Virus record (IMG/VR): IMGVR_UViG_3300030520_000044
Coordinates: 1-44,858 of that record
Direction: 5' to 3' (one strand)
DNA: 44,858 nt
Origin: a virus
The notes under the pieces were generated by a model. That model worked only from the letters and a program-made list of their open reading frames with translations. It was not told the origin of the DNA and searched no databases. Both the position numbers and the translations under genes were made by a program. Positions 22,059 to 41,067 of this stretch are shown piece after piece; position 1 is the first letter of the stretch, and every line of letters starts with the position of its first letter.

Positions 22059-22110
22059 TTGATGGGGTGCTACAGGAACCGTATAATACACCGTTACTAA
22101 CGGTTTGCAA
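22059..22110. promoter_or_regulatory. Divergent promoter pair sharing one palindromic operator
   Basis: Plus strand: TTGATG (22059-22064), 17-bp spacer, TATAAT (22082-22087), with the palindrome CACCGTTACTAACGGTT (22089-22105) covering the start of transcription. Minus strand: TTGCAA (22105-22110), the palindrome as spacer, then TATTAT or TTATAC (spacing 16 or 18). A protein bound here would block both the helicase operon and the minus-strand replication operon. Confidence 0.75.
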
Positions 22111-22125
22111 CTAGCGGAGAACGAT

Positions 22126-23889
22126 TTGTCAAACTTGCGGGGATTTCAACAACGTTTGAAAGATGACGTCAACGGCGCGTACCTAGGCGGCAAACGCGCC
22201 GTCATGATGCAACTGGCGACCGGTGGCGGCAAGACGGTAATTATGGGGTCATTCGCCAAGGATCATATCGCAACCCCGTGGAACCATCAGTTTCCGGCCG
22301 GTTGCAGCATCGCGCACCGGGGCGAACTGTTAGGGCAGATGTCGATTCAACTGGCGCGTGAGGAAGTACCTCACGGCCTGATTGCGTCAGACAAGGTTAT
22401 CAAAAGCATCGTCGCGGCCCATGTTGAGGAATTCGGGCGCACATTCTACAACGCCCGTTCGCCGTGGCGCGTTGCATCGGTCGACACCATCACCAAGCGT
22501 GATCTTGGACAATGGCCCGGTTCGGTTGGCATGGTACATATAGACGAAGGCCACCATGTATTGAAAGAAAACAAATGGGGTCGCGCGGCCGAACTATTCC
22601 CCAATGCCCGCTTTCTGTTGCCGACCGCAACGCCCATTCGTGCCGACCGCAAAGGGCTTGGCAGTCATGCCCATGGTATTGCCGATGCACTGGTTGAGGG
22701 GCCACCAATGCGCCAACTTATCAACGACGGCTACCTGACCGACTATAAGGTCTATTGCATCAAGCCAGATGACCTTGCAACTGATGGAATCGAAGTTAGC
22801 GCCAACGGCGAATTCAATCAGGACCAGGCGCGTGAAGCCGTCCATCAGTCCAAAAAGCTTGTCGGCAGTGTAGTCGATACCTATATCAAATACGCGCGCG
22901 GCAAGCTTGGTGTGACGTTCGCGCAGGACATCGAGGAAGCGCGCAAGATCACTGCGGAGTTTATCTCCAAGGGCATACCCGCCGCGATGCTCACAGGCGA
23001 AGACGATGAGGGGCACCGACGCAAGACGCTTCGTATGTTCCGCAACCGTGAGCTATGGCAACTGATCAACGTCGACCTGTTTGGCGAAGGGTTTGACCTA
23101 CCCGCTATCGAATGCGTGTCGTTCGCACGCATGACCGCATCGTTTAGCCTGTATTCCCAAATGTGGGGTCGTGCACTTCGCTTGATGATTTCACAAATAC
23201 TTGCAGGTGCATGGGATAGCTACACTGTGATGCAACGCCTGCAATTCATCAAGGATAGCGGCAAGCCATTTGCGTATATTTTCGACCACGTTGGCAACTT
23301 CTATTTTCACAAAGGTCCGCCTGACAAACCCCGCGTGTGGACTACCGATGCGGGCACCAAACGCAAGGCAGCGGTCGACGATGGCATACCGATGCGCGTA
23401 TGTCTCAACCCCGAATGTGCCTTCCCCTATGAACGCATCTATCACTGTTGCCCTTACTGCGGAACGGAAGCCCCGCCACCGGCCGCACGCGGTGGTCCTG
23501 CACAGGTCGATGGTGACATTACTGAAATTGACCCGGCGTTGCTGGCGCAATACCGGCAGGAAATGGAACGCATTGATGTACCGGCAACCGCTGTATACGT
23601 GCCAGCAGGCGTACCGCGTGTAGCAGTCATCAAGTCGCACATGAACCGGCAGGCCGCGCAGCACCGGTTGCGTGAGACGATGATCTATTGGTATTCAACC
23701 TATGGTGACCTTGACGCACGTGTAGCGTATCGTCGGTTCTGGTTCGCATTCAATATCGACCATAATGCGGCAATGACGTTAGGACGTTCTGAAGCGTATG
23801 CATTACGCGAACGAATCGTCGCAAGTCTTGTTGATCGTGGTATCGTGGTGCCTGCAAACCTGACCGTAACTAACGAAATTGAGGCGTGA
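22126..23889 (+). CDS. SF2 DNA helicase with C-terminal zinc ribbon
   Basis: 587 residues if started at TTG 22126, which has GGAG six bases upstream. A TTG 21 bases earlier overlaps the operator and lacks a site. Helicase motifs: I ATGGGKT (about 31-37), II DEGH (140-143), III TATP (167-170), V GEGFDLPAIE (about 320), VI QMWGRALR (345-352). A zinc ribbon CLNPEC with CCPYC follows near residue 430. It would unwind DNA in replication or recombination. The gene belongs to a plus-strand early operon with a VRR-NUC nuclease, a combination seen in replication-repair modules of many phages. Confidence 0.85.
   Translation: MSNLRGFQQRLKDDVNGAYLGGKRAVMMQLATGGGKTVIMGSFAKDHIATPWNHQFPAGCSIAHRGELLGQMSIQLAREEVPHGLIASDKVIKSIVAAHVEEFGRTFYNARSPWRVASVDTITKRDLGQWPGSVGMVHIDEGHHVLKENKWGRAAELFPNARFLLPTATPIRADRKGLGSHAHGIADALVEGPPMRQLINDGYLTDYKVYCIKPDDLATDGIEVSANGEFNQDQAREAVHQSKKLVGSVVDTYIKYARGKLGVTFAQDIEEARKITAEFISKGIPAAMLTGEDDEGHRRKTLRMFRNRELWQLINVDLFGEGFDLPAIECVSFARMTASFSLYSQMWGRALRLMISQILAGAWDSYTVMQRLQFIKDSGKPFAYIFDHVGNFYFHKGPPDKPRVWTTDAGTKRKAAVDDGIPMRVCLNPECAFPYERIYHCCPYCGTEAPPPAARGGPAQVDGDITEIDPALLAQYRQEMERIDVPATAVYVPAGVPRVAVIKSHMNRQAAQHRLRETMIYWYSTYGDLDARVAYRRFWFAFNIDHNAAMTLGRSEAYALRERIVASLVDRGIVVPANLTVTNEIEA
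23862..23878 (+). promoter_or_regulatory. Intragenic palindrome variant near the helicase 3' end
   Basis: GACCGTAACTAACGAAA keeps the left half and centre of the palindrome (CCGT-AACTAACG) inside coding sequence. No promoter boxes are seen around it. It could be a weak binding site or chance. Confidence 0.25.
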
Positions 23890-23890
23890 C

Positions 23891-24229
23891 ATGGATGAGA
23901 AAGTAACACCTGTAATCGGTCGCGAACAGGTTATCAAACACCTGATGCAACTACGCAAGACGCTAGTGCATTCGCTCAATCAGCCACGTATCGGACCGCG
24001 CCGGTTCAATGAGATACGTGAGCAACTGTTGCCGCTCGATGCACAGTTGCGCAAGCTTGGCATCGATGATTTGCCCGTGACGCCGCAAATGCAACCATCA
24101 TTTGTCAAACAGTCGCGATATGAGCGACGCAAGCATCAACGCGATGGCAAATTCAACAGTTATGAATCACGTATCGCGGAGAAGCGTGCACGCAAACGTC
24201 AACTGGAGCTTGAAGATGCGAACAATTGA
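23891..24229 (+). CDS. Hypothetical basic protein
   Basis: 112 residues from ATG at 23891, one base after the helicase stop and with GAGG 7 bases upstream. The protein is helical and strongly basic, with KRARKRQLELED at the end and a YERRKHQRDGKFNSYESR stretch. This suggests nucleic-acid contact, but no domain is recognised. It overlaps the nuclease gene by 14 bases, so the two are co-translated and may work together. Confidence 0.65.
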   Translation: MDEKVTPVIGREQVIKHLMQLRKTLVHSLNQPRIGPRRFNEIREQLLPLDAQLRKLGIDDLPVTPQMQPSFVKQSRYERRKHQRDGKFNSYESRIAEKRARKRQLELEDANN

Positions 24230-24704
24230 CGAATGGGCGCGTGCATGGGGCGTCGATAGCCGTGCTGTAGACGCCCTTAAATTACTGATGGGTTTGCATC
24301 AAATGGACGCGCCTAAACTCAGTGACGACCCTCCCGGTAGCGAATCTCGCCAGCAATCCCTTGTACGCATCGAAGCGGCCAATAAGTGCGTACGTCTGTT
24401 CCGCAACAACAGCGGTGCATTCAAGGACGATGATGGGCGTGTCGTGCGATATGGGCTTGCTAATGAATCCAAACAGGCCAACGAAGTTCTGAAGTCACCC
24501 GACCTTATTGGCTGGCGACCCAAACTGATCGAACCGCAACATGTGGGCATGACGTTCGGACTGTGCACCATGCGTGAGATAAAGCATGAAGGATGGACGT
24601 TCAGCCCAAACGACAGGCATGAGGCAGCGCAGCTTAACTTTCTCAATCTGGCGATAGCTGACGGTTGCGACGCTGCATTTGCCACCGGCCCCGGAACCCT
24701 GTAA
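24216..24704 (+). CDS. VRR-NUC family nuclease
   Basis: 162 residues. The VRR-NUC pattern is visible: SLVRIEAANKCVRLFRNNSG at the start of the domain, VVRYGLANES, then KSPDLIGW (D96), MREIKHEGW (E121, K123) and EAAQLNFLNLAIADGC (Q139). These proteins are PD-(D/E)XK endonucleases acting on branched or flapped DNA. Its place after an SF2 helicase suggests processing of replication intermediates. ATG at 24216 lies within the end of the gene before, with GGAG 12 bases upstream. The gene also contains the -35 of the next promoter. Confidence 0.85.
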   Translation: MRTIDEWARAWGVDSRAVDALKLLMGLHQMDAPKLSDDPPGSESRQQSLVRIEAANKCVRLFRNNSGAFKDDDGRVVRYGLANESKQANEVLKSPDLIGWRPKLIEPQHVGMTFGLCTMREIKHEGWTFSPNDRHEAAQLNFLNLAIADGCDAAFATGPGTL

Positions 24705-24735
24705 TATCTGCAACACCAAACCGTAACTAATGGAG
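24679..24735 (+). promoter_or_regulatory. Promoter and downstream operator of the mini-TetR gene
   Basis: TTGCCA (24679-24684), 17-bp spacer, TAATAT (24702-24707). Transcription would begin near 24714. A palindrome variant AACCGTAACTAATGGAG occupies 24719-24735, just downstream of the start and overlapping the ribosome binding site. This position fits autorepression. The site is weaker than the consensus, as often seen for a regulator's own operator. Confidence 0.6.
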
Positions 24736-24745
24736 TGAATCGAGC

Positions 24746-25051
24746 ATGGCAAACGAACGTATGAGCGCTAATGAGCGCACCGCACAACTGACATTGGTCG
24801 GTTACAAGATCGCCCGCACCAAAGGCATCCGCAAGGTGACGCGTGCCGCCGTGGCCCGTGAAACCGGCGTGAGTGATGGTCTGCTGAACCGGTACTTTGG
24901 GGGCCGTGAAGGTCTGCGCTTTGCCGTGTTGGAACATGCGGTTGCGGAGAATGACGCGAAAACACTAGCGGAAGCGAGCGAACATTACGAACTGCCCAAA
25001 CCGCTCAAGAAAACGTTACGCGCCGAAATCGACCGGCTTGTAAGACACTGA
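24746..25051 (+). CDS. Miniature TetR-type HTH regulator (candidate binder of the palindrome)
   Basis: 101 residues. Residues 15-70 match the TetR DNA-binding domain (LVGYKIARTKGIRKVTRAAV, then ARETGVSDGLLNRYFGGREG and LRFAVLEHAV). The usual C-terminal ligand-binding and dimerisation domain of about 120 residues is missing. Only about 35 charged residues follow. TetR proteins bind palindromes of 15-17 bp, as found across this genome, and a variant palindrome lies in this gene's leader. It is followed by a terminator, so it may form its own unit. The link to the operators is an inference. Confidence 0.8.
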   Translation: MANERMSANERTAQLTLVGYKIARTKGIRKVTRAAVARETGVSDGLLNRYFGGREGLRFAVLEHAVAENDAKTLAEASEHYELPKPLKKTLRAEIDRLVRH

Positions 25052-25073
25052 CCGGGCGTTGCGCATGGACCAC

Positions 25074-25100
25074 AAGGGACGCTCGAAGCGTCCCTTTTCA
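25074..25100 (+). terminator. Intrinsic terminator after the mini-TetR gene
   Basis: AAGGGACGCT, loop CGA, AGCGTCCCTT followed by T-rich sequence. A palindrome-type promoter begins 9 bases later. Confidence 0.88.
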
Positions 25101-25108
25101 TTTTCTGC

Positions 25109-25138
25109 TTGCATAGATGGAAGTAACGGTTTTATACT
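25109..25138 (+). promoter_or_regulatory. Operator-type promoter for the 25171 operon
   Basis: TTGCAT (25109-25114), 18-bp spacer holding AGATGGAAGTAACGGTT (right half of the palindrome perfect, left half degenerate), TATACT (25133-25138). It drives the group of small genes from 25171. Confidence 0.75.
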
Positions 25139-25170
25139 CTGTTCCGTTGTCAACCCTAATGGAGCTTAAA

Positions 25171-25527
25171 ATGTTACTTACCCTTGTGGTACTGGTTGCG
25201 GTCATGCTGATCGTCGCCTTGTTCGCATTTGCGTACCGGATGGACAAACATCGCGGCGTGATCCTGTTTGCAGTGCTGGCAGTGTGGTTGTATAACATGC
25301 AACCGGCAAGTGCGGCAACCATCAAGACGGTCACTGACGTGGATGGTGTCCGCTATTACGATGTCATGACAACCAACCCTAACGAGTCGTACAACGGTGT
25401 ACAAGGTCGTGATCCACGCATCGACAAGCTTTATAAGTGGCTCGACCTGGAATGTCGGGGCGGTCACGGTGATGACTCGGACACACAGGCATTCTGCAAC
25501 CTGCGCGATAAACTCGCCAAACAGTAA
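25171..25527 (+). CDS. Hypothetical membrane or exported protein
   Basis: 118 residues from ATG at 25171, preceded by TGGAGC. An earlier ATG at 25117 lies inside the promoter and is rejected. Residues 1-21 are a strong hydrophobic segment (MLLTLVVLVAVMLIVALFAF). A second hydrophobic stretch (GVILFAVLAVWLYNM) ends at a signal-peptidase-like SAA site near residue 48. The C-terminal part (IDKLYKWLDLECRGG) is soluble with two cysteines that could pair in the periplasm. As the first gene after an operator-promoter it is probably expressed early or conditionally. Confidence 0.65.
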   Translation: MLLTLVVLVAVMLIVALFAFAYRMDKHRGVILFAVLAVWLYNMQPASAATIKTVTDVDGVRYYDVMTTNPNESYNGVQGRDPRIDKLYKWLDLECRGGHGDDSDTQAFCNLRDKLAKQ

Positions 25528-25539
25528 GGACATACCATC

Positions 25540-26109
25540 ATGACTACCCCTGCACAAGAAGCCAAAGACTTTGCCGCTGCGAACGGCTTTACCATCAGCC
25601 CGCTTGACCGCCGTTACGTCGTGTCATATCCTGCCGCTCAATTCGACACATTCGTCGCGAACGTCGGCGGTTATCCGGCCGCGTTGAACGCTATGCGGAA
25701 ATATATGGATGCGTTGCGTGACGCGGAAGTGGCGGCGTTTAACGATCAAACCCGACCATCCGTAGTGAGGCTGTTGGTCGCTGCCGGTAGCAAATCGCCG
25801 GAGTTGCCGGTATGTGCTCGTGAGTTGCCTCTGACATATACCGCACAGCAACAACCTATCAACATGAATAGCGTGGGAATTGCATTCATTGATGTCGAAC
25901 AGACACTTGATGATGTGATTCGGGAACAACAGCGTCGCGTATTCGGTGCGATGGGTGTCAAGAAGGCCCAACCCGGCAGGTTTCGTATCGATGCGCCGGA
26001 AGGTGAGTATCTTGGCTTTCCTGATCGCGCTAGTGCTCTTAAGTATGTGCGCCGCAATCTGGCCGGTGTACGCGGCGTGAGCATCCTGCCTGTGGAGCAA
26101 GTACAGTGA
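25540..26109 (+). CDS. Hypothetical protein sharing a domain with the 15972-16223 product
   Basis: 189 residues, with an AAGGA site 9 bases before ATG. Residues about 25-60 (RRYVVSYPAAQFDTFVANVG, then YPAALNAMRKYMDAL) are similar to the small protein encoded after Rz. The rest, with DVEQTLDDVIREQQRRVFGA and a GEYLGFPDRASALKYVRRNL segment, is not recognised. No membrane segment. The stop overlaps the next GTG start. Confidence 0.65.
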   Translation: MTTPAQEAKDFAAANGFTISPLDRRYVVSYPAAQFDTFVANVGGYPAALNAMRKYMDALRDAEVAAFNDQTRPSVVRLLVAAGSKSPELPVCARELPLTYTAQQQPINMNSVGIAFIDVEQTLDDVIREQQRRVFGAMGVKKAQPGRFRIDAPEGEYLGFPDRASALKYVRRNLAGVRGVSILPVEQVQ

Positions 26110-26294
26110 CTCCTATCCTGACTGACGCAGAGATTGAACACCTGTTGACATTGCCTGAAGTCAAGGACGCGCTGATACGGTTCAACCGCGCACAGGCATA
26201 CCAGACCGTCGACCATGACACGCGGTTGCGGCTGGTGGCGCGTGTACGGTACTTCGAGCGCCAACCCGTTCCGTTGCGCGGTCGACCGCGCTAA
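26106..26294 (+). CDS. Small hypothetical protein
   Basis: 62 residues from a GTG start that overlaps the stop of the gene before (GTGA). Helical N-terminal half (LTDAEIEHLLTLPEVKDALI) and a basic C-terminus (PLRGRPR). Not recognised. Tight packing in an operator-driven operon supports that it is real. Confidence 0.55.
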   Translation: MTPILTDAEIEHLLTLPEVKDALIRFNRAQAYQTVDHDTRLRLVARVRYFERQPVPLRGRPR

Positions 26295-26296
26295 TC

Positions 26297-26488
26297 ATGA
26301 CGGTGCCAATTTTCAATATGGGCAATCCGGTGCGCAAGCAGGCCGCAATGCGCGATGACGGTATATGGTTCGTACGTCATCGTCGTCACAACGGCCCCGG
26401 ATTCACCGCGTGGAAACTGGCACCGTTCAATCAACGACCGCCCTATTCGTGGTATGACGGTCAACATGCAAAACTCCCCCATGAGTAA
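26297..26488 (+). CDS. Small hypothetical protein
   Basis: 63 residues beginning MTVPIFNMGNPVRKQAAMRD, rich in Trp, His and Arg (FVRHRRHNGPGFTAWKLAPF). Starts two bases after the previous stop and overlaps the next gene by 8 bases. No recognised domain. It may be a small host-directed protein, but nothing in the sequence shows this. Confidence 0.5.
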   Translation: MTVPIFNMGNPVRKQAAMRDDGIWFVRHRRHNGPGFTAWKLAPFNQRPPYSWYDGQHAKLPHE

Positions 26489-26699
26489 TGAATCTATCGG
26501 CCAGCGTGTGCGACGCCTACGCGTGCAGGCCAGCATTGAAAAAGTCGAACTAGCCCGGCGCGTCAAGGTCAACGAAGGTACCATTTACAACATGGAACGC
26601 GGCAAAGGCGTAAACATGTTCACATTCATCGACGTTGCGCGTGCACTTGGCGTGTCGCTCGATTATCTGGCTTCAGGAAAACCGCCAAATGGAAACTAA
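26481..26699 (+). CDS. Cro/C1-type (XRE family) HTH regulator
   Basis: 72 residues, starting MSNESIGQRVRRLRVQASIE. The helix-turn-helix region is KVELARRVKVNEGTIYNMER and the C-terminal helix is FIDVARALGVSLDYLASG, a complete small XRE domain. The binding site upstream of 26481 is poor, and in-frame ATGs at 26454 and 26466 are alternatives. It is embedded in an operon of small genes instead of standing divergent to another repressor, so a classical lysogeny switch is not evident. It is an alternative candidate for palindrome binding. Confidence 0.8.
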   Translation: MSNESIGQRVRRLRVQASIEKVELARRVKVNEGTIYNMERGKGVNMFTFIDVARALGVSLDYLASGKPPNGN

Positions 26700-27132
26700 A
26701 CGTATCGCGCGCGCATTGCCATCTCACGGCTCGATGCAACGTGCCATAAAGGCGGCGCTTGCAGTCGGTGCCGTCGTATCGATGAATCTTGATGGTGACG
26801 CACTGTTCGTACAGTTCAAGGACTCTGACCGTTATCTGTTTGACCCGGACAATATCACCATGCACTGCCTGGAACTGGTCGGTGTGGCGCGTATTCATGG
26901 GTTCGTGTTGTACCGTTATGACCCGAACGACAAAGAGCACCCGTACAAATGGGGTCGCGCGCCACTTGTCGTTCGTACCGTCTTTAGCAACATTGACGTG
27001 CGCGTGCAGATCGGCGCAAGCAAGTGGTTTAACGTCGAACACCACGACACGGCCTATGCGCTGCGTCATTCCATCATCAACGCATTCGTGACCTACTATG
27101 ACGAAGCAATCGCCCCCTATCCCGAAGCGTGA
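26689..27132 (+). CDS. Hypothetical protein
   Basis: 147 residues from ATG at 26689 with AGGAAA 8 bases upstream, overlapping the stop of the HTH gene. It contains beta-type segments (SMNLDGDALFVQFKDSDRYL) and a KWFNVEHHDTAYALRHSIIN stretch. No recognised domain or membrane part. Overlaps the next gene by 35 bases. Confidence 0.6.
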   Translation: METKRIARALPSHGSMQRAIKAALAVGAVVSMNLDGDALFVQFKDSDRYLFDPDNITMHCLELVGVARIHGFVLYRYDPNDKEHPYKWGRAPLVVRTVFSNIDVRVQIGASKWFNVEHHDTAYALRHSIINAFVTYYDEAIAPYPEA

Positions 27133-27316
27133 CTTTCTGCCGTCACAGCGACCGGACCATATCACCAAGGGTCTCGACGCTGCATACGAAGCCGGGTTCG
27201 GTATGGGTCGACGCGCCGGTCTGGAACGCGCGTGCGATATCCTGCGCGAAATGAAACCGGGCGATGTCGACGTTTTCAAACTGCTGGAACTATTCACTGC
27301 GGAGAAGTATCGATGA
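27098..27316 (+). CDS. Small hypothetical protein
   Basis: 72 residues. A helical core GLDAAYEAGFGMGRRAGLER followed by ACDILREMKPGDVDVFKLLE is a pattern I have seen in small phage proteins of unknown role. The stop overlaps the next ATG (ATGA). Confidence 0.55.
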   Translation: MTKQSPPIPKRDFLPSQRPDHITKGLDAAYEAGFGMGRRAGLERACDILREMKPGDVDVFKLLELFTAEKYR

Positions 27317-27738
27317 AAAACTATAATTGCCTCACGTGTCAGGAACCGATGAAAGTATCGATATTTTTCCATACTTATATCCGGTCCAACGGTCCGCAAA
27401 AGCAGCGGTGTACGATGTGTGGCGCGGTGCATGAAGTGAATGGCAAGAACGAAATACGCCTGACAGTACCCGGCGCACAGATGGCAAAGCTGTCACAGGA
27501 GTACGGTTACCCGGAACATAAACCGTGGCGTGTGGGGGCGTACCGCGTGCGCTACAGCAACGGTCAATGGAGCAAGGTCAAGGTGACATGGGATGGTGAT
27601 GTGTGGCGCAACGGCCCGGTCCTTTTCCACGCTGGCAGCATCGTCGCATGGCAGGGGCTGGCAGGTGATATGGAACATCTTAAGCGCATGCCGTATGACC
27701 TTGCCGACCCGCTACCTTATAACGGTGATGACGAATGA
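27313..27738 (+). CDS. Hypothetical zinc-binding protein
   Basis: 141 residues. Two Cys pairs, CLTC at residues 6-9 and CTMC around residue 33-36, can hold a zinc ion. The C-terminal two-thirds are beta-like with many tryptophans (VKVTWDGDVWRNGPVLFHAG). Coupled to neighbours by ATGA overlaps on both sides. Function unknown. Confidence 0.6.
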   Translation: MKNYNCLTCQEPMKVSIFFHTYIRSNGPQKQRCTMCGAVHEVNGKNEIRLTVPGAQMAKLSQEYGYPEHKPWRVGAYRVRYSNGQWSKVKVTWDGDVWRNGPVLFHAGSIVAWQGLAGDMEHLKRMPYDLADPLPYNGDDE

Positions 27739-27989
27739 AACCTTCAATGCTAAAGAAAGATTTAATGCTCGACATGTTCACCACTGCGGCGAATGTACAT
27801 ATGCGTTACCACAAGGCAACTAGCTTTGTGCTCGCGTGCGATTCAGGTAATGAAGATGCTGACGGTAACGCCCCAGCGCTTGCACATGTATTCATTGTGT
27901 CGGCTACTGATGCGAATGAACTTGAGGACTTCTTTCGCAAGCGTGAGCATGTGATGCTCGAAATGCTGCGAAAGGACTTCGAGCAATGA
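27735..27989 (+). CDS. Small hypothetical protein
   Basis: 84 residues, ATGA overlap at both ends. A strand-rich middle (ALAHVFIVSATDANELEDFF) followed by a charged helix (RKREHVMLEMLRKDFEQ). Not recognised. Confidence 0.55.
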   Translation: MKPSMLKKDLMLDMFTTAANVHMRYHKATSFVLACDSGNEDADGNAPALAHVFIVSATDANELEDFFRKREHVMLEMLRKDFEQ

Positions 27990-28195
27990 AGCTCATCTAT
28001 AAATGCAGCTATTGCGGGCAGGCCAAAGAGTTCGACTATCCCGCATCTGCATGTCATGACGTCGAATTTATACTAACGCATGCACTGCATGGATATGTGC
28101 CGGGAGTGAGCGGCGGTGCGCGTCCATGGATCAGACACCCGTGCCAACCCGGCGTGCATGGTATCGCTAACCTTATTGCCATTCTGGAACCCTGA
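27986..28195 (+). CDS. Small hypothetical protein with a Cys pair
   Basis: 69 residues beginning MKLIYKCSYCGQAKEF. CSYC is a half zinc-ribbon. Two further cysteines, at ACHD and PCQP, could complete it. No other features. ATGA overlap with the gene before. Confidence 0.55.
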   Translation: MKLIYKCSYCGQAKEFDYPASACHDVEFILTHALHGYVPGVSGGARPWIRHPCQPGVHGIANLIAILEP

Positions 28196-28196
28196 C

Positions 28197-28292
28197 ATGT
28201 TCATGCTACTTTTCGCAATCATTGCTGCACTGTACGGCGATTGGTGGTTGACACTAATATTCGTCGGCATATGGCTGATATTTCTGGACTGA
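28197..28292 (+). CDS. 31-residue membrane protein
   Basis: A very short frame with sequence beginning MFMLLFAIIAALYGDWWLTL and ending VGIWLIFLD. Two hydrophobic segments are separated by GDWW, so it could span the membrane twice. It starts one base after the previous stop and ends four bases before a terminator, completing the operon. No separate binding site is evident, so coupling is likely. Confidence 0.45.
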   Translation: MFMLLFAIIAALYGDWWLTLIFVGIWLIFLD

Positions 28293-28295
28293 CAT

Positions 28296-33116: not shown

Positions 33117-33145
33117 TTTGTAGACCGTTAGTAACGGTTTGACAA
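33117..33145 (-). promoter_or_regulatory. Minus-strand operator-promoter
   Basis: Reading on the minus strand: TTGTCA (33145-33140), AACCGTTACTAACGGTC as 17-bp spacer (one mismatch in the palindrome), TACAAA (33122-33117). It drives the 32470-33060 gene. The leader also holds a small hairpin ACGGCA-AA-TGCCGT. Confidence 0.8.
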
Positions 33146-34060: not shown

Positions 34061-34217
34061 GAAAGTCACGCTTTTGCATATAGCGCAAGGGTGTGAACAG
34101 CGCGGCGAAGATTCATACGCTCGCGTCGTGCGTCAGATGGTTCAACGTCTTTGGCCTGATGCACGTGTAGTGGATGACGCGGTTAAGATTGACGACGCGT
34201 TTGGGCATCTGTTGTGA
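34032..34217 (+). CDS. Small hypothetical protein
   Basis: 61 residues, AGGG upstream of ATG, overlapping the previous gene by 29 bases. Helical (VEKVTLLHIAQGCEQRGEDS) with an acidic end. Not recognised. Confidence 0.5.
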   Translation: MQQFPITAVEKVTLLHIAQGCEQRGEDSYARVVRQMVQRLWPDARVVDDAVKIDDAFGHLL

Positions 34218-34218
34218 T

Positions 34219-34268
34219 ACACTCCGCTCTGCTGTAACGTTAGTAACGATCCAAACCTTTCGAAAGGA
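34219..34268 (+). promoter_or_regulatory. Palindrome site and hairpin in the leader of the 34279 gene
   Basis: A -10-like TACACT (34219-34224) without a clear -35 is followed by TAACGTTAGTAACGATC (34236-34252), a palindrome variant with a perfect core. CCTTTCGAAAGG (34257-34268), a perfect 12-bp palindrome, overlaps the ribosome binding site AAAGGA. Confidence 0.5.
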
Positions 34269-34679: not shown

Positions 34680-34708
34680 TTGTCAAACCGTTACTTACGG
34701 TTCATACT
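34680..34708 (+). promoter_or_regulatory. Operator-promoter
   Basis: TTGTCA (34680-34685), AACCGTTACTTACGGTT as spacer (34686-34702, one mismatch), CATACT (34703-34708). Drives the 34737-35451 group. Confidence 0.82.
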
Positions 34709-34736: not shown

Positions 34737-34892
34737 ATGACAGCATTTCTGTACGTAATGGTGGCAATGATGCTGATTGCGTCGTTGACGGTTGGTTGGG
34801 TCGCGCTGCGCTATCACATGATGCCGCCTGAAGTCGATCCGCGTGTGCTTGATATCAACTGGCCGTGCGGGGATGACCATGATCCGGTATAA
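34737..34892 (+). CDS. Small membrane protein
   Basis: 51 residues from ATG 34737 with TGGAGA 7 bases upstream. Residues 3-25 are hydrophobic (FLYVMVAMMLIASLTVGWVA), followed by a short soluble tail. A single-span inner-membrane protein is expected. Unknown role. First gene of an operator-controlled group. Confidence 0.6.
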   Translation: MTAFLYVMVAMMLIASLTVGWVALRYHMMPPEVDPRVLDINWPCGDDHDPV

Positions 34893-35136
34893 CGTTTCGC
34901 CGGGTGCGCTTGACATGTGCGCGGATGGTGATTTCGTCAAATACGAAGACGCCCGCCGCGATATTGAGCGCCTGGGCAATGAACTGTTCGCGGCGCGTGC
35001 CGCGAACAAAGAGCTTGAGGCACAGCGACGGCGCGACCTGAAAGTCAAGGATGACCGTATCGAACTGCTCGAAACTAGAGCCCGTCAAGCTGTCGTCGCA
35101 TTGGGCTTTCGTGACCCTGATGAGGGTAGAACATGA
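34879..35136 (+). CDS. Hypothetical coiled-coil protein
   Basis: 85 residues if started at ATG 34879, six bases after GGGG. ATG 34873 is an alternative. A charged helix RRDIERLGNELFAARAANKE and ELEAQRRRDLKVKDDRIELL fits a coiled coil. Overlaps both neighbours. Function unknown. Confidence 0.55.
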   Translation: MIRYNVSPGALDMCADGDFVKYEDARRDIERLGNELFAARAANKELEAQRRRDLKVKDDRIELLETRARQAVVALGFRDPDEGRT

Positions 35137-35336
35137 TGAACCTGACCATCGGTGAAGATGCTGACTGGCGCATCCGTGTGACGGAGCCTGACGGTTCGAC
35201 CCGCACGCTGATACTGAACGGTCGGGCCAGTTGGAAAAAGGTTAGCGCCGTGTGTCATGCACGGTCGTTCGCGTTCCGCAACCCGATGTGCAAGGTGCGT
35301 GTCGAAATCTTTGGATACATTGATGATGAAGGTTAG
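35133..35336 (+). CDS. Small hypothetical protein
   Basis: 67 residues, ATGATG start overlapping the preceding stop. Beta-rich (DWRIRVTEPDGSTRTLILNG) with two cysteines. Not recognised. Confidence 0.55.
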   Translation: MMNLTIGEDADWRIRVTEPDGSTRTLILNGRASWKKVSAVCHARSFAFRNPMCKVRVEIFGYIDDEG

Positions 35337-35451
35337 GTATCTGAAGCATCGCCCGCGCAAACGTACCGTATGGCTCGATGGCGGAACGTTTGTTGTTCCC
35401 AAAGCCACCGTCGACGCCATAACAGCGTGGTTGCGCTCGTTCGTCAAATAG
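35323..35451 (+). CDS. 42-residue basic protein
   Basis: Starts at ATGATG inside the end of the preceding gene. Sequence MMKVRYLKHRPRKRTVWLDG followed by TFVVPKATVDAITAWLRSF is strongly basic at the N-terminus, with an amphipathic helix at the end. Possibly nucleic-acid or membrane binding. Not recognised. Confidence 0.45.
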   Translation: MMKVRYLKHRPRKRTVWLDGGTFVVPKATVDAITAWLRSFVK

Positions 35452-35454
35452 TTG

Positions 35455-35484
35455 TTGACGGTGCGAAAGTAATGGTTTTATACT
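35455..35484 (+). promoter_or_regulatory. Operator-type promoter (degenerate site)
   Basis: TTGACG (35455-35460), 18-bp spacer containing GTGCGAAAGTAATGGTT (right half AGTAA-GGTT kept), TATACT (35479-35484). It precedes the 35519 gene. GTCAC just after the -10 can pair with GTGAC in the ribosome binding site. Confidence 0.7.
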
Positions 35485-35518
35485 TGTCACACTTTCACAC
35501 AACAAGCAGGTGACTGAA

Positions 35519-35737
35519 ATGCAAGAACGGAACGAAACAGCAGCGATAAACGCTATCGAACATGCGCATAGACAAAGTTTACACGCCATCCACTTAGCAG
35601 TAGAAGCATTCGGGGAAGACAGGGAATTTTCTGTTTTATTGGCACGTTTGCAAGATGCAGCAATGGACATTGAGACCATCAAAAATCAGATGGTGCGCAT
35701 AAAGTCCCGCAACGATATTGAACGTGGATTTAAGTAA
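35519..35737 (+). CDS. Hypothetical helical protein
   Basis: 72 residues from ATG 35519 with AGGTGA five bases upstream. Entirely helical (NETAAINAIEHAHRQSLHAI and FSVLLARLQDAAMDIETIKN). Its codons are somewhat richer in A/T than those of its neighbours. It forms a single-gene unit with its own promoter and a weak hairpin at 35749-35766. Function unknown. Confidence 0.55.
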   Translation: MQERNETAAINAIEHAHRQSLHAIHLAVEAFGEDREFSVLLARLQDAAMDIETIKNQMVRIKSRNDIERGFK

Positions 35738-35782
35738 CCCACCGCCCCGCAGGACGGGACTTTTTCTTCATAGGTGAAAAAT

Positions 35783-36619
35783 ATGCTTTCGTATCATAAC
35801 GATCCGGCAATAAAACTGAAGTATCAGGCCCGTTTCGAAGCGCATCGCAAGGCTGACGATGTCATTCAGGGTACCGGGTATGACAACAGTCGTGGATGCT
35901 TCGTCGGTTGTACTCTCAACAAGTACGATCATTCGCGCTTTCCTGTTGAACTTGGCTGGCCGGAATGGCTGGCGCGTCTTGCCGATGTAATTTTTGAAGG
36001 CGTTCCGAAGTCAGAAGCGGCACAGTTTGGTACCGACTTGTTAGATGCGGTCCAGATCGGCAAGGACTTGGAGCCGGTTAAATGGCACTTGGCGATTGCT
36101 CGCCATAAAGTGCAGATCGAGCGTCTGAAACATAATAGCGAACCCTATGCAGAACAGGTTAGTAATGCGTTGCAAGGTGTTATCGACTACTGTGAGTCTC
36201 AACTAGCCGGAACAGCTACCGATGAAATGACGGCGTGGTCGGCAGCGGAGTCGGCAGCGCGGTCGGCGTGGTCGGCAGCGGAGTCGGCGTGGTCGGCGCA
36301 GTCGGCGTGGTCGGCGCAGTCGGCGCAGTCGGCAGCGGAGTCGGCAGCGGAGTCGGCAGCGCGGTCGGCAGCGCGGTCGGCGTGGTCGGCAGCGCGGTCG
36401 GCAGCGCAGTCGGCGCGGTCGGCAGCGGAGTCGGCAGCGGAGTCGGCAGCGGAGTCGGCAGCGCGGTCGGCAGCGGAGTCGGCAGCGTGGTCGGCGTGGT
36501 CGGCGTGGTCGGCAGCGGAGTCAGCGTGGTCGGCAGCGCGGTCGGCGTGGTCGGCAGCGCGGTCGGCAGCGTGGCAATTCGAACGCGATACGCTTTTGAC
36601 GATTTTGCGTGAAATGTGA
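35783..36619 (+). CDS. Phage protein with long Ser-Ala-Trp/Glu/Arg repeat tail
   Basis: 278 residues from ATG 35783 with AGGTGA five bases upstream. Residues 1-110 ([60 protein letters not shown]) form a domain I recall from many phage genomes with no known function. From residue about 152 to 266 the sequence is built of short units [13 protein letters not shown] and SAAR. This should form a long alanine-rich helix with regularly placed Trp and charged residues. The unit number is likely to vary between relatives. Confidence 0.7.
36235..36575 (+). repeat. Low-complexity mosaic of 9-bp and 12-bp units
   Basis: Units GCGTGGTCG (9 bp) and GCAGCGGAGTCG or GCAGCGCGGTCG (12 bp) alternate irregularly for about 340 bases. 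All unit lengths are multiples of three, so the frame is kept. The same pattern opens spurious long frames in the other frames and on the other strand. Confidence 0.9.
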
Positions 36620-36792
36620 TGTTGACCGATATCCGTATCCCTATCCGACCCGACACGCCCATTCTTGAACGCGATACGCTTGATTCGTGGATTATCGACA
36701 GCGTGCAGGGCTCGACAGTACTTATCGTTCGTGTAACTGATGGTCTGCGCCGGAACGTAGCGCGCGATACCATTGACGAGTTGTATAGCTAG
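36619..36792 (+). CDS. 57-residue hypothetical protein
   Basis: A short frame beginning [20 protein letters not shown] and ending RDTIDELYS. Its ATG overlaps the stop of the repeat-protein gene (TGATG), so it is probably co-translated. Beta-like centre ([18 protein letters not shown]). Not recognised. Confidence 0.5.
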
Positions 36793-36796
36793 CTCA

Positions 36797-36817
36797 AACC
36801 GTCACCGACGTTACACT
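36797..36817 (+). promoter_or_regulatory. Degenerate palindrome with -10-like box before the large terminase
   Basis: AACCGTCACCGACGTTA keeps the left half of the palindrome. TACACT at 36812-36817 is at the place of the -10. The -35 would be AGCTCA, which is poor. Transcription from here would begin inside the following hairpin. Confidence 0.35.
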
Positions 36818-36818
36818 A

Positions 36819-36848
36819 GGGCCATAGCTCATAACTATGGCCCTTTTT
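36819..36848 (+). terminator. Intrinsic terminator directly before the large terminase start
   Basis: GGGCCATAG, loop CTCATAA, CTATGGCCC, TTTTT. The ATG of the terminase follows after one base, and no ribosome binding site is present between. Confidence 0.85.
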
Positions 36849-36849
36849 C

Positions 36850-38466
36850 ATGCCCTACCCCTACGCGCACGACTTCCGTGCCCCCGATTACTCCCGTATC
36901 TTTCAATGGCGCGTTGACAAGCTCCATCAGCTACGCGCTGATCCGGCATTGCTTAAAGCGGTCCTGACGCATTATCGTCACAATCCAATCGACCTGATCG
37001 AAGATTGGGGATGTACGTATGACCCGCGTAATGTTGGCTCACAGTACCCTGCAATGCTGCCGTTGATCCTGTTTCCACGCCAACGTGAGTTTCTGCAATG
37101 GGTCATCGAGCGTTGGAAAGCCAAAGAATTTGCAGTAAGTGACAAGTCGCGCGATATGGGCCTGTCATGGATGATGGTGTCACTATTCACCGCACTGGCC
37201 GTTACTAACGAAGGATTCACAGGCGGATTCGGATCACGCAAGGAAATCCTTGTTGATCGTGCCGGTGACCCTGACTGTTTATTTTTCAAAATTCGCATGT
37301 TCCTGTCATTGCTGCCATTTGAGTTCCGGGGCGGTTGGGTCATGGGTGGGCGGGACTGTGATAAGTCGATGCTCATCACGATACCGTCAACTGGCGCAGT
37401 GATCCGTGGTGAAGCAGGCGACAACATTGGCCGGGGCGGTCGCGCATCCATTTATTGCCGTGACGAAGCGGCGTTTATTGAACGGCCCCAACTGAGCGAT
37501 GCTGCTTTATCACAGAACACGAATTGCCTGATTGATATCAGTTCAGTCAATGGCTTTGACAACCCGTTCGCAGAGAAGCGTCACAGTTGGCCCGAACATC
37601 GTGTATTCACCTTCCAATGGCGTGACGATCCGCGCAAGGATGAGGCATGGTATGAAAAGCAGAAAGAGAACCTTAACCCGCTTATCGTTGCGCAAGAAAT
37701 TGACCTTGACTATTCAGCGTCCAAGCAAGGTGTTGTCATACCTTCAGCGTGGATACAATCTGCCATCGGTGCTGCGCGTAAGCTCGGTATCACGATCAAA
37801 GGTGAACGTCGTTCGGCGCTTGATGTGGCGGATGAGGGGCTTGACCTGAACGCATGGGCCGGTCGACACGGTATCGAGCTACAACACATAGACGCCTGGA
37901 GCGGTCAGGGCAAAACAATATTCTGGACAACGGAACAGGCGTTTTTACGCTGCGATGAGTTTGACTATGACAACTGCCGGTATGACGGCGACGGGCTTGG
38001 CGCTGGTGTACGCGGCGACGCGGCGCAGATCAATGGTCGGGACAACCGCAAAGGATCGCAACGCAAGTTCACTGAGTTCAAAGGCAGTGGTGCCGTTGTC
38101 AACCCTACAGCACTGGTCTACAAAGGTGATGACCGTGGTGTCGGGTCGCGCAAGAACGAAGATTTCTTCAAGAACCTGAAAGCGCAATCATGGTGGTCAT
38201 TGCGTATGCGTTTTGAGAAGACGCACCGCGCCGTGGTGGATGGCGCGGTGTTTGACCCTGACGAACTTATCAGCATCAGTGAACAGATACCGCCGCACGT
38301 ACGGACCAAGCTTGTTGCAGAACTGTCACAACCGACATACGACATCAACACGGCCGGTCAGATGATTATAGACAAGACACCAGACGGCACACGCTCACCG
38401 AACCATGCCGACTCGGTGATGATCCTGTACGCACCGCAGGAAAAGAAATCGTCATTGTTTGCATGA
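36850..38466 (+). CDS. terL: Terminase large subunit
   Basis: 538 residues. An adenine/Q-motif-like FPRQREFLQWV (residues 76-86) precedes a Walker A variant DKSRDMGLSW (K99, R101, S106). Walker B with catalytic glutamate is YCRDEAAFI (D205, E206). The nuclease domain shows SALDVADEGLD (D325) and YDGDGLGAGVRGD (D379, D381). It is the ATP-driven packaging motor and cuts the concatemer. ATG 36850 is the only reasonable start, but it has no binding site and abuts a terminator hairpin, an odd arrangement. It is 4.6 kb from the small subunit. Confidence 0.92.
   Translation: MPYPYAHDFRAPDYSRIFQWRVDKLHQLRADPALLKAVLTHYRHNPIDLIEDWGCTYDPRNVGSQYPAMLPLILFPRQREFLQWVIERWKAKEFAVSDKSRDMGLSWMMVSLFTALAVTNEGFTGGFGSRKEILVDRAGDPDCLFFKIRMFLSLLPFEFRGGWVMGGRDCDKSMLITIPSTGAVIRGEAGDNIGRGGRASIYCRDEAAFIERPQLSDAALSQNTNCLIDISSVNGFDNPFAEKRHSWPEHRVFTFQWRDDPRKDEAWYEKQKENLNPLIVAQEIDLDYSASKQGVVIPSAWIQSAIGAARKLGITIKGERRSALDVADEGLDLNAWAGRHGIELQHIDAWSGQGKTIFWTTEQAFLRCDEFDYDNCRYDGDGLGAGVRGDAAQINGRDNRKGSQRKFTEFKGSGAVVNPTALVYKGDDRGVGSRKNEDFFKNLKAQSWWSLRMRFEKTHRAVVDGAVFDPDELISISEQIPPHVRTKLVAELSQPTYDINTAGQMIIDKTPDGTRSPNHADSVMILYAPQEKKSSLFA
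37197..37213 (+). promoter_or_regulatory. Intragenic palindrome core inside the large terminase
   Basis: GGCCGTTACTAACGAAG contains the perfect 12-base core CCGTTACTAACG within coding sequence. No promoter boxes flank it. It may be a binding site that blocks transcription, or chance. Confidence 0.3.
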
Positions 38467-38487
38467 ACGTTAGTAACAGTTTATACT
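38459..38487 (+). promoter_or_regulatory. Operator-promoter after the large terminase
   Basis: TTGCAT (38459-38464), spacer GAACGTTAGTAACAGTT (38465-38481), TATACT (38482-38487). The -35 lies in the last codons of the terminase. Confidence 0.82.
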
Positions 38488-38520
38488 CCCGGCGTAGTCC
38501 CATAAACTCACCGGGAGTAT
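38483..38520 (+). promoter_or_regulatory. Hairpin that would hide the ribosome binding site in read-through RNA
   Basis: ATACTCCCGG (38483-38492) pairs perfectly over 10 bp with CCGGGAGTAT (38511-38520), which contains the ribosome binding site GGGAG. The left arm overlaps the -10 box and ends just before the expected start of transcription. Only RNA coming from upstream can form the hairpin. Confidence 0.65.
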
Positions 38521-38522
38521 CC

Positions 38523-38735
38523 ATGCAAGACAAGCGCCCATCCGTCACAACCGATGAATCCTGCAAGGACGGCAATATCGTCCAGTTGCAATGCGCATTG
38601 ATCGCTGACGACCTATATGCAGTGTTGACGCGTGCCCACAAGTTGGGCTTTGTCATCACCGTCGATATCGAAAACCTGCAACCGTTTGCGATGGGCAACT
38701 ATCGTATGGATGCAAAAATCAGGAGTCGCAGATAA
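38523..38735 (+). CDS. Small hypothetical protein
   Basis: 70 residues from ATG 38523 with GGGAG five bases upstream. An in-frame ATG at 38463 overlaps the terminase stop (ATGA) and could give a 90-residue form from read-through RNA. Sequence IVQLQCALIADDLYAVLTRA followed by HKLGFVITVDIENLQPFAMG suggests an alpha/beta fold. Not recognised. First gene after an operator-promoter. Confidence 0.6.
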   Translation: MQDKRPSVTTDESCKDGNIVQLQCALIADDLYAVLTRAHKLGFVITVDIENLQPFAMGNYRMDAKIRSRR

Positions 38736-38905
38736 TGCATTTTCATTGGCCCCAAATTGTTGAAATTTGCCTGATGGCGTTTTCATTCCTTCTGCACGGT
38801 ATGAACCATGGCAAGCCGACGCGCGGCACCTATAATGGCTTCGTGTCCATGCTCGTCATTGCCGTCAACGTAACGATTCTCTATTACGGGGGATTCTGGT
38901 CATGA
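38735..38905 (+). CDS. 56-residue membrane protein
   Basis: Starts at TAATG overlapping the preceding stop, with AGGAG 10 bases upstream. Two hydrophobic segments (IVEICLMAFSFLLHG and GFVSMLVIAVNVTILYYGG) flank a short basic loop (HGKPTRG). A two-span inner-membrane protein is expected. Ends with ATGA overlap to the next gene. Confidence 0.55.
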   Translation: MHFHWPQIVEICLMAFSFLLHGMNHGKPTRGTYNGFVSMLVIAVNVTILYYGGFWS

Positions 38906-39111
38906 CTACACCTGTTCGCGTCACCGTCAACGGTCACCGTGTATTCGTTGGGCCGCAGGCGTTCGCGTTTTCATCACAGGCCGCAGCGGCGCAGGCGCAA
39001 TGCACACTGCGTGAACCGCTCCATATCCCTCGCGGCGGCAACAAGTTCGACAAGCAGGACGTCGGTGTGTTTGCGGCACTCGAAGCCGCGTTCAAGGCGG
39101 CGCAATCATGA
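38902..39111 (+). CDS. Small hypothetical protein
   Basis: 69 residues, ATGA overlaps at both ends. Begins TTPVRVTVNGHRVFVGPQAF and continues with an Ala/Gln-rich helix. Not recognised. Confidence 0.55.
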   Translation: MTTPVRVTVNGHRVFVGPQAFAFSSQAAAAQAQCTLREPLHIPRGGNKFDKQDVGVFAALEAAFKAAQS

Positions 39112-39473
39112 CCCTTACCGACATTTCACGCCTACTCAAGTTCGCCAAGGCACCTTGCAGCAAGACGGTAGAATGCTTCTACCCCAATCCGTCTATCGAA
39201 GTGTTCGTTCCAATGACGCACTATCTGATCGTCAAGGAAGTCGTTAGACGGCTCGACGTGCTGCCGGGTTTGGACCTTCGCATATCGCCGCTGACGAGTC
39301 GTGACGTCAAGCCGAATCAACACGTGTATGTCAAGGTAAAGGGCGTAACGATCGGTCACACTGATGTCAATGACGGATCGGACTGGCGCGAGAAACTTCG
39401 CCGTCGACGCGAATCAGCCCGTATGCGCAACCATGACGTTAAGGTAGAATGTGCATCGGTGGTTGTACCGTAA
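39108..39473 (+). CDS. Hypothetical protein
   Basis: 121 residues, ATGA start. Alpha/beta pattern (SIEVFVPMTHYLIVKEVVRR, then VYVKVKGVTIGHTDVNDGSD) and a strongly basic helix REKLRRRRESARMRNH near the end that could bind nucleic acid. Last gene of the 38523 operon, followed by a terminator. Confidence 0.55.
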   Translation: MTLTDISRLLKFAKAPCSKTVECFYPNPSIEVFVPMTHYLIVKEVVRRLDVLPGLDLRISPLTSRDVKPNQHVYVKVKGVTIGHTDVNDGSDWREKLRRRRESARMRNHDVKVECASVVVP

Positions 39474-39492
39474 CAACTGCGCTGCAACTACC

Positions 39493-39528
39493 AAACGCCC
39501 CATTCTGACCGATGGGGCGTTTTCTTTT
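39493..39528 (+). terminator. Intrinsic terminator
   Basis: AAACGCCCCAT, loop TCTGACCG, ATGGGGCGTTT then TCTTTT. The stem is shared with the terminator at 34641. An operator-promoter follows after about 10 bases. Confidence 0.88.
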
Positions 39529-39538
39529 GCGGTCATAC

Positions 39539-39568
39539 TTGCCAAACCGTTAGTAACGGTTCTATACT
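39539..39568 (+). promoter_or_regulatory. Operator-promoter with perfect palindrome
   Basis: TTGCCA (39539-39544), AACCGTTAGTAACGGTT (39545-39561, perfectly symmetric apart from the central base), one base, TATACT (39563-39568). Drives the outer-membrane protein gene. Confidence 0.85.
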
Positions 39569-39600
39569 TCATACCATCATCAACCAATGTGAGGTGTGAA
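39568..39600 (+). promoter_or_regulatory. Hairpin over the ribosome binding site in read-through RNA
   Basis: TTCATACC (39568-39575) pairs with GGTGTGAA (39593-39600) over 8 bp with one G-U pair, covering part of the binding site GAGG and the bases up to the ATG. The left arm lies between the -10 box and the expected transcription start. Confidence 0.5.
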
Positions 39601-40266
39601 ATGAAAAAGTTGGCAATCGCGGTAGCCGTAGCGCTCGCATCTGTTAGCGCTCACGCACAGGACTGGTTCCAGTTTGAGGTAGGTGTCGGCGTCGGACTCG
39701 CGAATGATATGGGTGACGGCACGTGGATTCAAGACGGCTCACCCGACAATCGCGAGAAGTTGACGTTCCCCGTCATCACTGCTGGTATCACGGGTGAACT
39801 GTATCAGCGTGGTTCGGTCGATGTGCGCTATCACGCTGACTATGCGTACCTTGGCGAGCAACGCGCGAGTGTAATGGGCGTACCTGACGATCAATACAAC
39901 GGTCAGACGCATAGCATCACTGGATACCAGGGTGAACGATTCAGCCCGTTCAATGGCCATGGTCACGTGCAGGGCATCCCTGTCACGCTTGACGTTGGCT
40001 ATACGCTCTACGGATGGCGCATGGGTGTCGAAGCCGGTGTTTGGGCCTACTGGCAGACATGGCACGAATCGCTGTACAACCTTGCCGACCAGTGGCAAGA
40101 CCTTTCCCACAAGACGACAGTACAATTCGGCTATGTTATCGGCGCGAGTGTATCGCGCGGCCCGTTGAGTCTGTCGTACCGTTACTACAATGTACGGCAA
40201 TTGTGGAACCCAAATCCCGGCCTTGTGACCGGTGCAAACGTTGTAACCCTCACCTATCGTTTCTAG
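39601..40266 (+). CDS. Phage-encoded outer-membrane beta-barrel protein
   Basis: 221 residues. A typical signal peptide (MKKLAIAVAVALASVSAHA, cleavage before Q20) is followed by alternating beta strands (FQFEVGVGVGLAND, VDVRYHADYAYLGEQ, VTLDVGYTLYGWRMGVEAGV, TTVQFGYVIGASVS). The chain ends VVTLTYRF, a C-terminal phenylalanine signature recognised by the outer-membrane assembly machinery. It has its own terminator and operator-promoter, so it is an autonomous accessory gene. A role in superinfection exclusion or altering the host surface, as for Lom-type proteins, is plausible but inferred. Confidence 0.8.
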   Translation: MKKLAIAVAVALASVSAHAQDWFQFEVGVGVGLANDMGDGTWIQDGSPDNREKLTFPVITAGITGELYQRGSVDVRYHADYAYLGEQRASVMGVPDDQYNGQTHSITGYQGERFSPFNGHGHVQGIPVTLDVGYTLYGWRMGVEAGVWAYWQTWHESLYNLADQWQDLSHKTTVQFGYVIGASVSRGPLSLSYRYYNVRQLWNPNPGLVTGANVVTLTYRF

Positions 40267-40280
40267 GACAAATTCAAATC

Positions 40281-41030
40281 ATGGCAAAACAAACTGAACT
40301 TAGCAAATTGCTCAAGTCATTGCACCGCGCGATCTATGCACATGTCGACTTGAGTCGCACGCCGCACGTAGCAGTAACCGATGTGCGGTTGAAACACACA
40401 GAGGGAGAAGTCGACAAGGCGACGAAACGCCTGTTCTCATACTTCGACAAGATGCAAGAACAGATTGATACCGGTGAGCGTGACAAGACGGCATTGCGCG
40501 ACCTGTTGATACACGCGCAGGACACTTCTAAACGTCATGGGGAGTGTGTACAGGCGGCAGGGAAGGTAGGCGTAACGTTTCGTCAGGAGAAGTCGCCGGG
40601 CGGTACGTTTTCTTGGTATGTGGCGGAATTGCCCGGCATTGCATCGACGGTGGTCGCACCATTTGTAGTGAAGTTTCCATTTGATTTGCAAAAAGTAAAG
40701 GATGGTGCGCCAATTCAATGCGAAGTTGCAAAAGGACACGAAGGCAGCAAGCTGTGGTTTGACGCTCGATTTATCGGCATGTCGGGCGATGATGTAGTTA
40801 TAGATAGCGATCTACATGGGCTTGAAAAGGTCGCGACGTCTGATTTGCGTATGAAGATGAAGGCGCCATCTGAACTCACGCTCTATGCGAACGTCGCGCG
40901 CAATCAGGGACTCGACGGCATCAAAGGCGCGGTCTATGCCACATATACTGAGGCGAATACCGCTGCGGCGAAATTCCCCGGCCAGCACGTTGTGACAGCA
41001 TTCCCGGTAAAAGTGACCGTCACTTTGTAA
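40281..41030 (+). CDS. Hypothetical protein
   Basis: 249 residues from ATG 40281 with AGGA 11 bases upstream, 14 bases after the barrel gene. N-terminal half helical and charged (TKRLFSYFDKMQEQIDTGER, KTALRDLLIHAQDTSKRHGE). C-terminal half beta-like (LWFDARFIGMSGDDVVIDSD). No signal peptide or membrane segment. Not recognised. Shares the transcript of the outer-membrane protein. Confidence 0.6.
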   Translation: MAKQTELSKLLKSLHRAIYAHVDLSRTPHVAVTDVRLKHTEGEVDKATKRLFSYFDKMQEQIDTGERDKTALRDLLIHAQDTSKRHGECVQAAGKVGVTFRQEKSPGGTFSWYVAELPGIASTVVAPFVVKFPFDLQKVKDGAPIQCEVAKGHEGSKLWFDARFIGMSGDDVVIDSDLHGLEKVATSDLRMKMKAPSELTLYANVARNQGLDGIKGAVYATYTEANTAAAKFPGQHVVTAFPVKVTVTL

Positions 41031-41038
41031 CAACATGT

Positions 41039-41067
41039 GACCGTTACTAACGTTTTTACGGTATAAT
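41039..41067 (+). promoter_or_regulatory. Palindrome with TATAAT downstream
   Basis: GACCGTTACTAACGTTT (41039-41055) carries the perfect core. TATAAT at 41062-41067 is a consensus -10, but the spacing is longer than at the other sites and the -35 (TGACCG or GTGACC) is poor. An eight-codon frame (41070-41096) ends overlapping the next GTG start. Confidence 0.6.

Follow-up and report, generated by a model that had tools for sequence, protein, structure and literature searches.

The 17-bp palindrome AACCGTTASTAACGGTT, which recurs in the tailed-phage genome analysed here (IMG/VR record IMGVR_UViG_3300030520_000044, taken over its whole length of 44,858 nucleotides and hereafter called the window), is quite probably an operator bound by the phage's own repressor, which would act over most early and accessory promoters. 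This repressor is most likely P0001, a short TetR-type protein that would bind as a dimer. A count against shuffled sequence, proposed when the palindrome was first noticed, gave seven matches with at most three mismatches (starting at 1273, 22089, 33123, 34686, 38465, 39545, and 41039), compared with ~0.06-0.1 expected per dinucleotide-shuffled genome. A weight matrix returned nine sites scoring at least 14, with 23862 among them, against 0.13 expected.

Ranking the sites by matrix score gave eight strong sites (centres 1281, 22097, 33131, 34244, 34694, 38473, 39553, and 41047; scores 19.6-30), two weaker but conserved sites (centre 23870, score 15.0; centre 24727, score 12.0), and two half-sites (centre 25123, score 9.0; centre 35469, score 4.3) at which the right half, GTAACGGTT/GTAATGGTT, abuts a TATACT box. 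The sequence-only reading had listed about 14 places, two of which did not hold up: 36805 (start 36797) scored 4.3, which is background level, and was dropped, while 37205 (start 37197) scored 12.7 but lies within the terminase gene, has no counterpart at the orthologous place in the related phages G004 or G005, and was taken as coding sequence. A match at 15226 within the endolysin gene was likewise omitted as conserved coding sequence, though it is stronger in G004 and G005. The weight-matrix scan found no strong site between 1.3 and 22 kb, as expected from the initial impression that the late block is nearly devoid of sites. Naive palindrome clustering over whole genomes yielded a signal that was not separable from GC-rich background. 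For the window and for phages Psp6 and KsaM-C1, a refined dyad scan put the expected motif at the top of its ranking; it was used as support only, and equally high scores were seen in GC-rich genomes that lack the motif.

Most of these sites sit inside promoters. The palindrome fills the spacer at 33123..33139 on the minus strand (TTGTCA-17-TACAAA, towards gene 33069-32470; conserved in G004 and G005), and on the plus strand at 34686..34702 (TTGTCA-17-CATACT; positional equivalents in G004 and G005) and at 38465..38481 (GAACGTTAGTAACAGTT in TTGCAT-17-TATACT, overlapping the terminase gene at its end; complete operators in G002, G004, and G005). A perfect operator occupies the 18-bp spacer of TTGCCA-18-TATACT at 39545..39561 (plus strand), is conserved in the same three relatives, and stands upstream of gene 39601-40266, a predicted outer-membrane beta-barrel. 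The exact spacer fit first claimed for six places thus stands for these four, and the other two are half-sites only: at 25115..25131 (plus strand) the right half AAGTAACGGTT lies in the 18-bp spacer of TTGCAT...TATACT just past the tetR-like gene, where it is kept in G002, G004, and G005 and becomes a full palindrome in the more distant relative L009, and at 35461..35477 (plus strand) the half-operator GAAAGTAATGGTT lies in the 18-bp spacer of TTGACG...TATACT, with GCGAAAGTAACGGTT kept in G004 and G005.

The operator CACCGTTACTAACGGTT at 22089..22105, assigned to neither strand, lies between divergent operons and is conserved in G002, G004, and G005. Its minus-strand promoter (TTGCAA-16-TATTAT, with the operator within the spacer, which is 17 bp long in G002 and G005) faces the exonuclease/ssDNA-annealing/DNA polymerase operon running from 22039 to 16431; this spacer site was absent from the earlier list of spacer-filling sites. 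The plus-strand promoter faces the helicase gene, with its -35 box TTGATG at 22059-22064, its -10 box TATAAT at 22082-22087, and the operator immediately 3' of the latter, at the start.

Placement within spacers, as originally proposed, does not describe every site, exceptions being the 22089 plus promoter and three further plus-strand sites. The weaker operator AACCGTAACTAATGGAG at 24719..24735, upstream of the tetR-like gene and unchanged in position in G002, G004, and G005, lies in the start region ~12 bp 3' of a TAATAT -10-like box (24702-24707) and has the counterpart AACCATTACTAACGATA in L009. Operator TAACGTTAGTAACGATC at 34235..34251 is likewise in the start region, after an extended -10 box (TGA-TACACT, 34215-34223), a layout that is matched in G004 (TGATACACT) and G005 (TGCTATAGT). 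Operator GACCGTTACTAACGTTT at 41039..41055 overlaps a promoter on its -35 side; this promoter has its TATAAT at 41062-41067 and precedes gene 41093 as well as the portal gene. The operator is conserved in G002, G004, and G005, and the -10 box less so. Two more plus-strand sites lie close to gene boundaries. The weaker operator GACCGTAACTAACGAAA at 23862..23878 is found where the helicase gene ends, upstream of the next gene; it keeps its position in all three relatives and reads GACCGTTACTAACGAAA in G004 and CACCGTTACTAACGAAT in G005. AACCGTTAATAACGGAG at 1273..1289 overlaps the stop codon that ends gene 811-1281 together with the ribosome-binding site for gene 1298, is accompanied by weak promoter boxes (TTGGCG-17-TATAGG), and is conserved in G002 and G004; it is possibly an operator whose sequence is partly constrained by coding.

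The sites at 23862, 24719, 34235, and 1273, each found beyond a start or close to where a gene begins, could be roadblocks, and the sites as a whole are numerous and dispersed, as are the repressor sites of mycobacteriophage L5, which lie genome-wide. It is nevertheless very unlikely that they are mycobacteriophage-like stoperators that halt elongating RNA polymerase across the genome. Stoperators are asymmetric 13-bp sites read by a monomer, situated in short intergenic spaces and oriented with transcription, where they block elongation (PMC9283540), and many of them lie outside promoters. The palindromes in the window are symmetric 17-mers found mostly in promoter cores, and the early remark had already set the pattern apart from stoperators by its tie to promoters.

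This tie was assayed by computing a sigma70 score at every spacer offset relative to the palindrome for the strong sites of three genomes (the window, G004, and G005), using random or intergenic positions as the null and E. coli weights for the -35 and -10 boxes, which may not be those of the host. The mean score peaked at offset zero only, that is, with the palindrome filling the -35/-10 spacer. In this register, 17 of the 26 sites, which come from related genomes (73-78% identical) and are not independent samples, scored above 95% of the null and 14 above 99% (0.26 expected), which random or intergenic positions did not match. The palindrome lies between the boxes and adds little or nothing to the score, and the result is therefore not circular. 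The coupling of palindrome and promoter is real.

Many of the promoters are built as units of -35 box, site, and -10 box, which would also suit a spacer-bound activator of the MerR type, with the palindrome marking middle genes to be switched on, and a TetR-family activator that works through a promoter motif has been reported (PMC6873888). MerR-type activation goes with an over-long spacer of 19-20 bp that contains a palindrome, whereas the spacers here are already 16-18 bp long with good boxes. Moreover, at other sites and in other lineages the operator lies on the -35 box, the -10 box, or the start, as expected for occlusion but not for a single activating geometry. Activation is accordingly given little credence, and occlusion of RNA polymerase is favoured.

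The arrangement is retained among relatives. G002 (~95% identical), G004, and G005 (both 73-78%) are collinear phages which carry operators at the same promoters despite changes in the surrounding DNA, and at least ten promoters are positionally conserved together with their site across the three. Loss of the palindrome from relatives that keep the promoters would have spoken against the initial proposal; G004 and G005 keep both together at orthologous places. An unbiased search for the palindrome across 2.9 million viral contigs yielded ~100 loci. Nearly all contigs with at least two sites encode relatives of the window phage, while the remaining loci are mostly single and without relatives, as chance predicts.

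The reader of the palindrome is likely P0001, a regulator that the sequence-only reading had not named. Its gene (24746-25051, plus strand) encodes 101 aa with a Pfam TetR_N domain (E 9.6e-8, above the gathering score), and profile matches were to TetR-family chains. The AlphaFold2 model (pLDDT 92) has six helices, comprising the helix-turn-helix DNA-binding domain followed by two short helices, and its closest matches in the PDB, by sequence and by fold, are the DNA-binding domains of HapR/LuxR/SmcR. The chain ends at residue 101 and the predicted structure has no ligand-binding domain; homologues are mostly 92-108 aa long. P0001 thus has the N-terminal TetR_N domain of the family but not the C-terminal ligand-binding and dimerisation domain, and is a holder of the TetR DNA-binding domain rather than a complete TetR-family repressor. 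The domain that it lacks is the one by which TetR proteins usually dimerise. As is often the case in the TetR family, a predicted palindromic operator lies beside its own gene: the imperfect site at 24719 is directly upstream and conserved in four genomes, and the tetR-like gene is likely autoregulated through it. This self-site ranks among the weaker matches.

The main rival candidate is P0002, an XRE-type regulator of 72 aa (26481-26699), which could read the operator in CI/Cro fashion. XRE proteins are classical phage repressors, P0002 carries the PHROGs label of transcriptional repressor, and its gene is common to G002, G004, and G005 (49-99% identity). However, the XRE gene has no operator upstream, whereas the tetR-like gene has one, Psp6, whose operator is related and which encodes a TetR homologue, gave no match to the XRE protein, and operator classes match TetR classes across unrelated phages. 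P0002 is therefore an unlikely reader, and P0001 is preferred.

The match between operators and TetR proteins extends well beyond the window. Short TetR homologues were found in other phages, many of which have the same divergent polymerase/helicase early region. The TetRs of Psp6 and its relative L146 are 39-41% identical to P0001, and the corresponding motif, AATCRTAAWTTAYGATT, occurs at six and three sites, respectively (null 0). It resembles AACCGTTASTAACGGTT in its 17-bp length, one-base centre, and symmetry, shares part of the half-site, and overlies -10 boxes in both phages. A third motif, TTGACGNNNNCGTCAA, was found at 11 sites in JD001, 13 in KsaM-C1, nine in CP-T1, and four in phiPLPE (null 0.2 for the first three). 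Here, a TTGACG inside the operator doubles as the -35 box, with -10 boxes scoring best 17 bp downstream, and 26 of 33 sites exceeded 90% of the null as promoters; in JD001 and KsaM-C1 one such site lies upstream of tetR. Each operator class is nearly absent from the other phage groups. No such TetR was found in Silvanus, with a shared helicase and polymerase region, or in Magia, with a shared terminase, and both phages have none of the three motifs. Vibrio phage 1.009.O and AeroV_348, both with a short TetR, showed no clear operator.

It might still be argued that a host regulator binds the site, either exploited by the phage or silencing incoming phage DNA, as sites of the TetR type occur widely in hosts. 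Against this, a single operator class spans Klebsiella, Vibrio, and Iodobacter phages that share a TetR type, while other TetRs go with other classes, and contigs with two or more sites come almost all from the window phage group. Since the classes match TetR types, are near-absent elsewhere, and are missing where no such TetR was found, the operator tracks the TetR lineage and not the host, and a host regulator is extremely improbable. A repressor encoded by the phage remains the preferred explanation.

Under such a repressor, host sigma70 RNA polymerase would read the free promoters soon after phage entry, and the repressor would be expressed from one of the early units and then accumulate. 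I infer, as the best account of the sites, that a bound dimer would then block RNA polymerase at many promoters together, as first suggested: sitting on the spacer, the -35 box, the -10 box, or the start site, it would shut these promoters at once, its own included. The one operator at 22089 would govern two divergent promoters, those of the DNA polymerase and helicase operons, and half-sites and weak sites may be shut later or to a lesser degree, resulting in a graded shut-off. Because P0001 has no ligand-binding domain, the switch is expected to track repressor dose and not a small molecule. No tyrosine or serine integrase was found in the four records G000, G002, G004, and G005, which as IMG/VR records may be incomplete, and the window phage therefore need not be temperate; among the bacterial genomes sampled, no close relative turned up with either the TetR protein or the terminase as query. 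Early shut-off is the more likely use in the window phage.

Dispersed phage operators are known from a few temperate phages. The phiC31 repressor has many near-identical palindromic operators that are intergenic and in several cases at early promoters; it belongs to a different family, and phiC31 is an actinobacterial (Streptomyces) temperate phage with an integrase. On the plasmid RK2, the repressor KorA, of a different fold family, is very short and has copies of one palindrome at several promoters. The proposed repressor would act in the manner of the phiC31 and P1 C1 regulons, with many near-identical promoter sites spread over one genome, as seen in the window. The C1 repressor of P1 represses lytic gene expression from 22 dispersed 17-bp operators (PMC8546580) and is thus similarly one phage repressor with many 17-bp sites across the genome. 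However, the P1 operators are asymmetric, C1 is unrelated and works with the partners Coi and Lxc, and P1 is a plasmid prophage, whereas the window phage has symmetric sites that fill promoter spacers and a TetR-type candidate reader.

P0001 shares its DNA-binding fold with TetR itself. The odd symmetry of tetO around one central base is also that of the palindrome described here. In contrast to the TetR/tetO pair, P0001 carries neither a ligand-binding nor a known dimerisation domain, and a single protein would act at no fewer than ten phage promoters. The layout is akin to that of PLtetO-1 and Jungle Express: in engineered forms of T5, T7, and lambda early promoters, the 17-bp spacer was given a truncated operator of the TetR family, and a full one was added at the start site so that control would be tight (PMC6127294). 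The compact repressor-promoter pairs proposed here would be nature's version of a spacer-operator design that engineers built by hand.

The tetR-like genes of phiPLPE, CP-T1, and 138, which encode homologous short regulators, were judged plausibly co-opted in 2012 and assigned no role; no operators for them turned up in passages of PMC3391216. By the same source, Vibrio phage CP-T1 is reported to be temperate although none of the known lysogeny genes is present in its genome. The four sites in phiPLPE and nine in CP-T1 are new here. Searches of the literature on TetR, phage, and promoters, with subscription journals thinly covered, gave no account of these operators, and searches for the palindrome itself returned no relevant paper. 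A minimal TetR candidate repressor, on record in phages from 2012 or earlier but with no role assigned, gains a predicted binding site and a target list in each lineage. If true, this would account for how many early promoters might be closed jointly in these phages, with related viruses of several bacteria sharing one design and each having its own version of the palindrome. With its TetR homologue and nine sites, CP-T1 could possibly use the repressor in a quiescent state, which, if true, would be an answer to its temperate behaviour without known lysogeny genes. More tentatively, and with the odds rather against it, TetRs free of a ligand domain may form an unrecognised class of phage master repressors, each with its own core-promoter palindrome, in a broad set of phages of which several lack classical lysogeny genes; in some, such as CP-T1, they could maintain a quiescent, lysogeny-like state. 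Homologues of the JD001 protein are present in 97 GenBank records.

The window's perfect operator lies upstream of its putative target, gene 39601-40266 on the plus strand. Its product is likely an outer-membrane beta-barrel protein, with a weak match to OMP_b-brl that fell below the curated cut-off, and it could have a role in superinfection exclusion. A further plus-strand gene (35774-36619) carried a long low-complexity stretch at about 36220-36580, which consisted of short tandem repeats resembling tcggcagcg and tcggcgtgg.

Half-operators, in which only the right half of the palindrome lies beside the -10 box, were found at 25115-25131 and 35461-35477, and were retained at both promoters in the window phage and in its collinear relatives G004 and G005. 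L009, a more distant relative, had the full palindrome at the equivalent of the first of these promoters (25115-25131).

A partial palindrome within the endolysin gene (15226-15242) reached a matrix score of 7.6 in the window, while the equivalent place scored higher in G004 and G005 (16.2 and 20.9, respectively). At 16230-16430 the window had no operator promoter, unlike the collinear relatives G002, where the corresponding region held a minus-strand promoter with a perfect operator, and G005, where the counterpart was degenerate. The plus-strand gene for a 72-aa XRE/Cro-type regulator (26481-26699) was conserved in G002, G004, and G005, and no palindrome copy was present upstream of it.

Acinetobacter phage Scuro showed a variant dyad, TGAC(N6)GTCA, at five places (21960, 22970, 26266, 28351, and 33394), among them upstream of its tetR gene and within the divergent early region.
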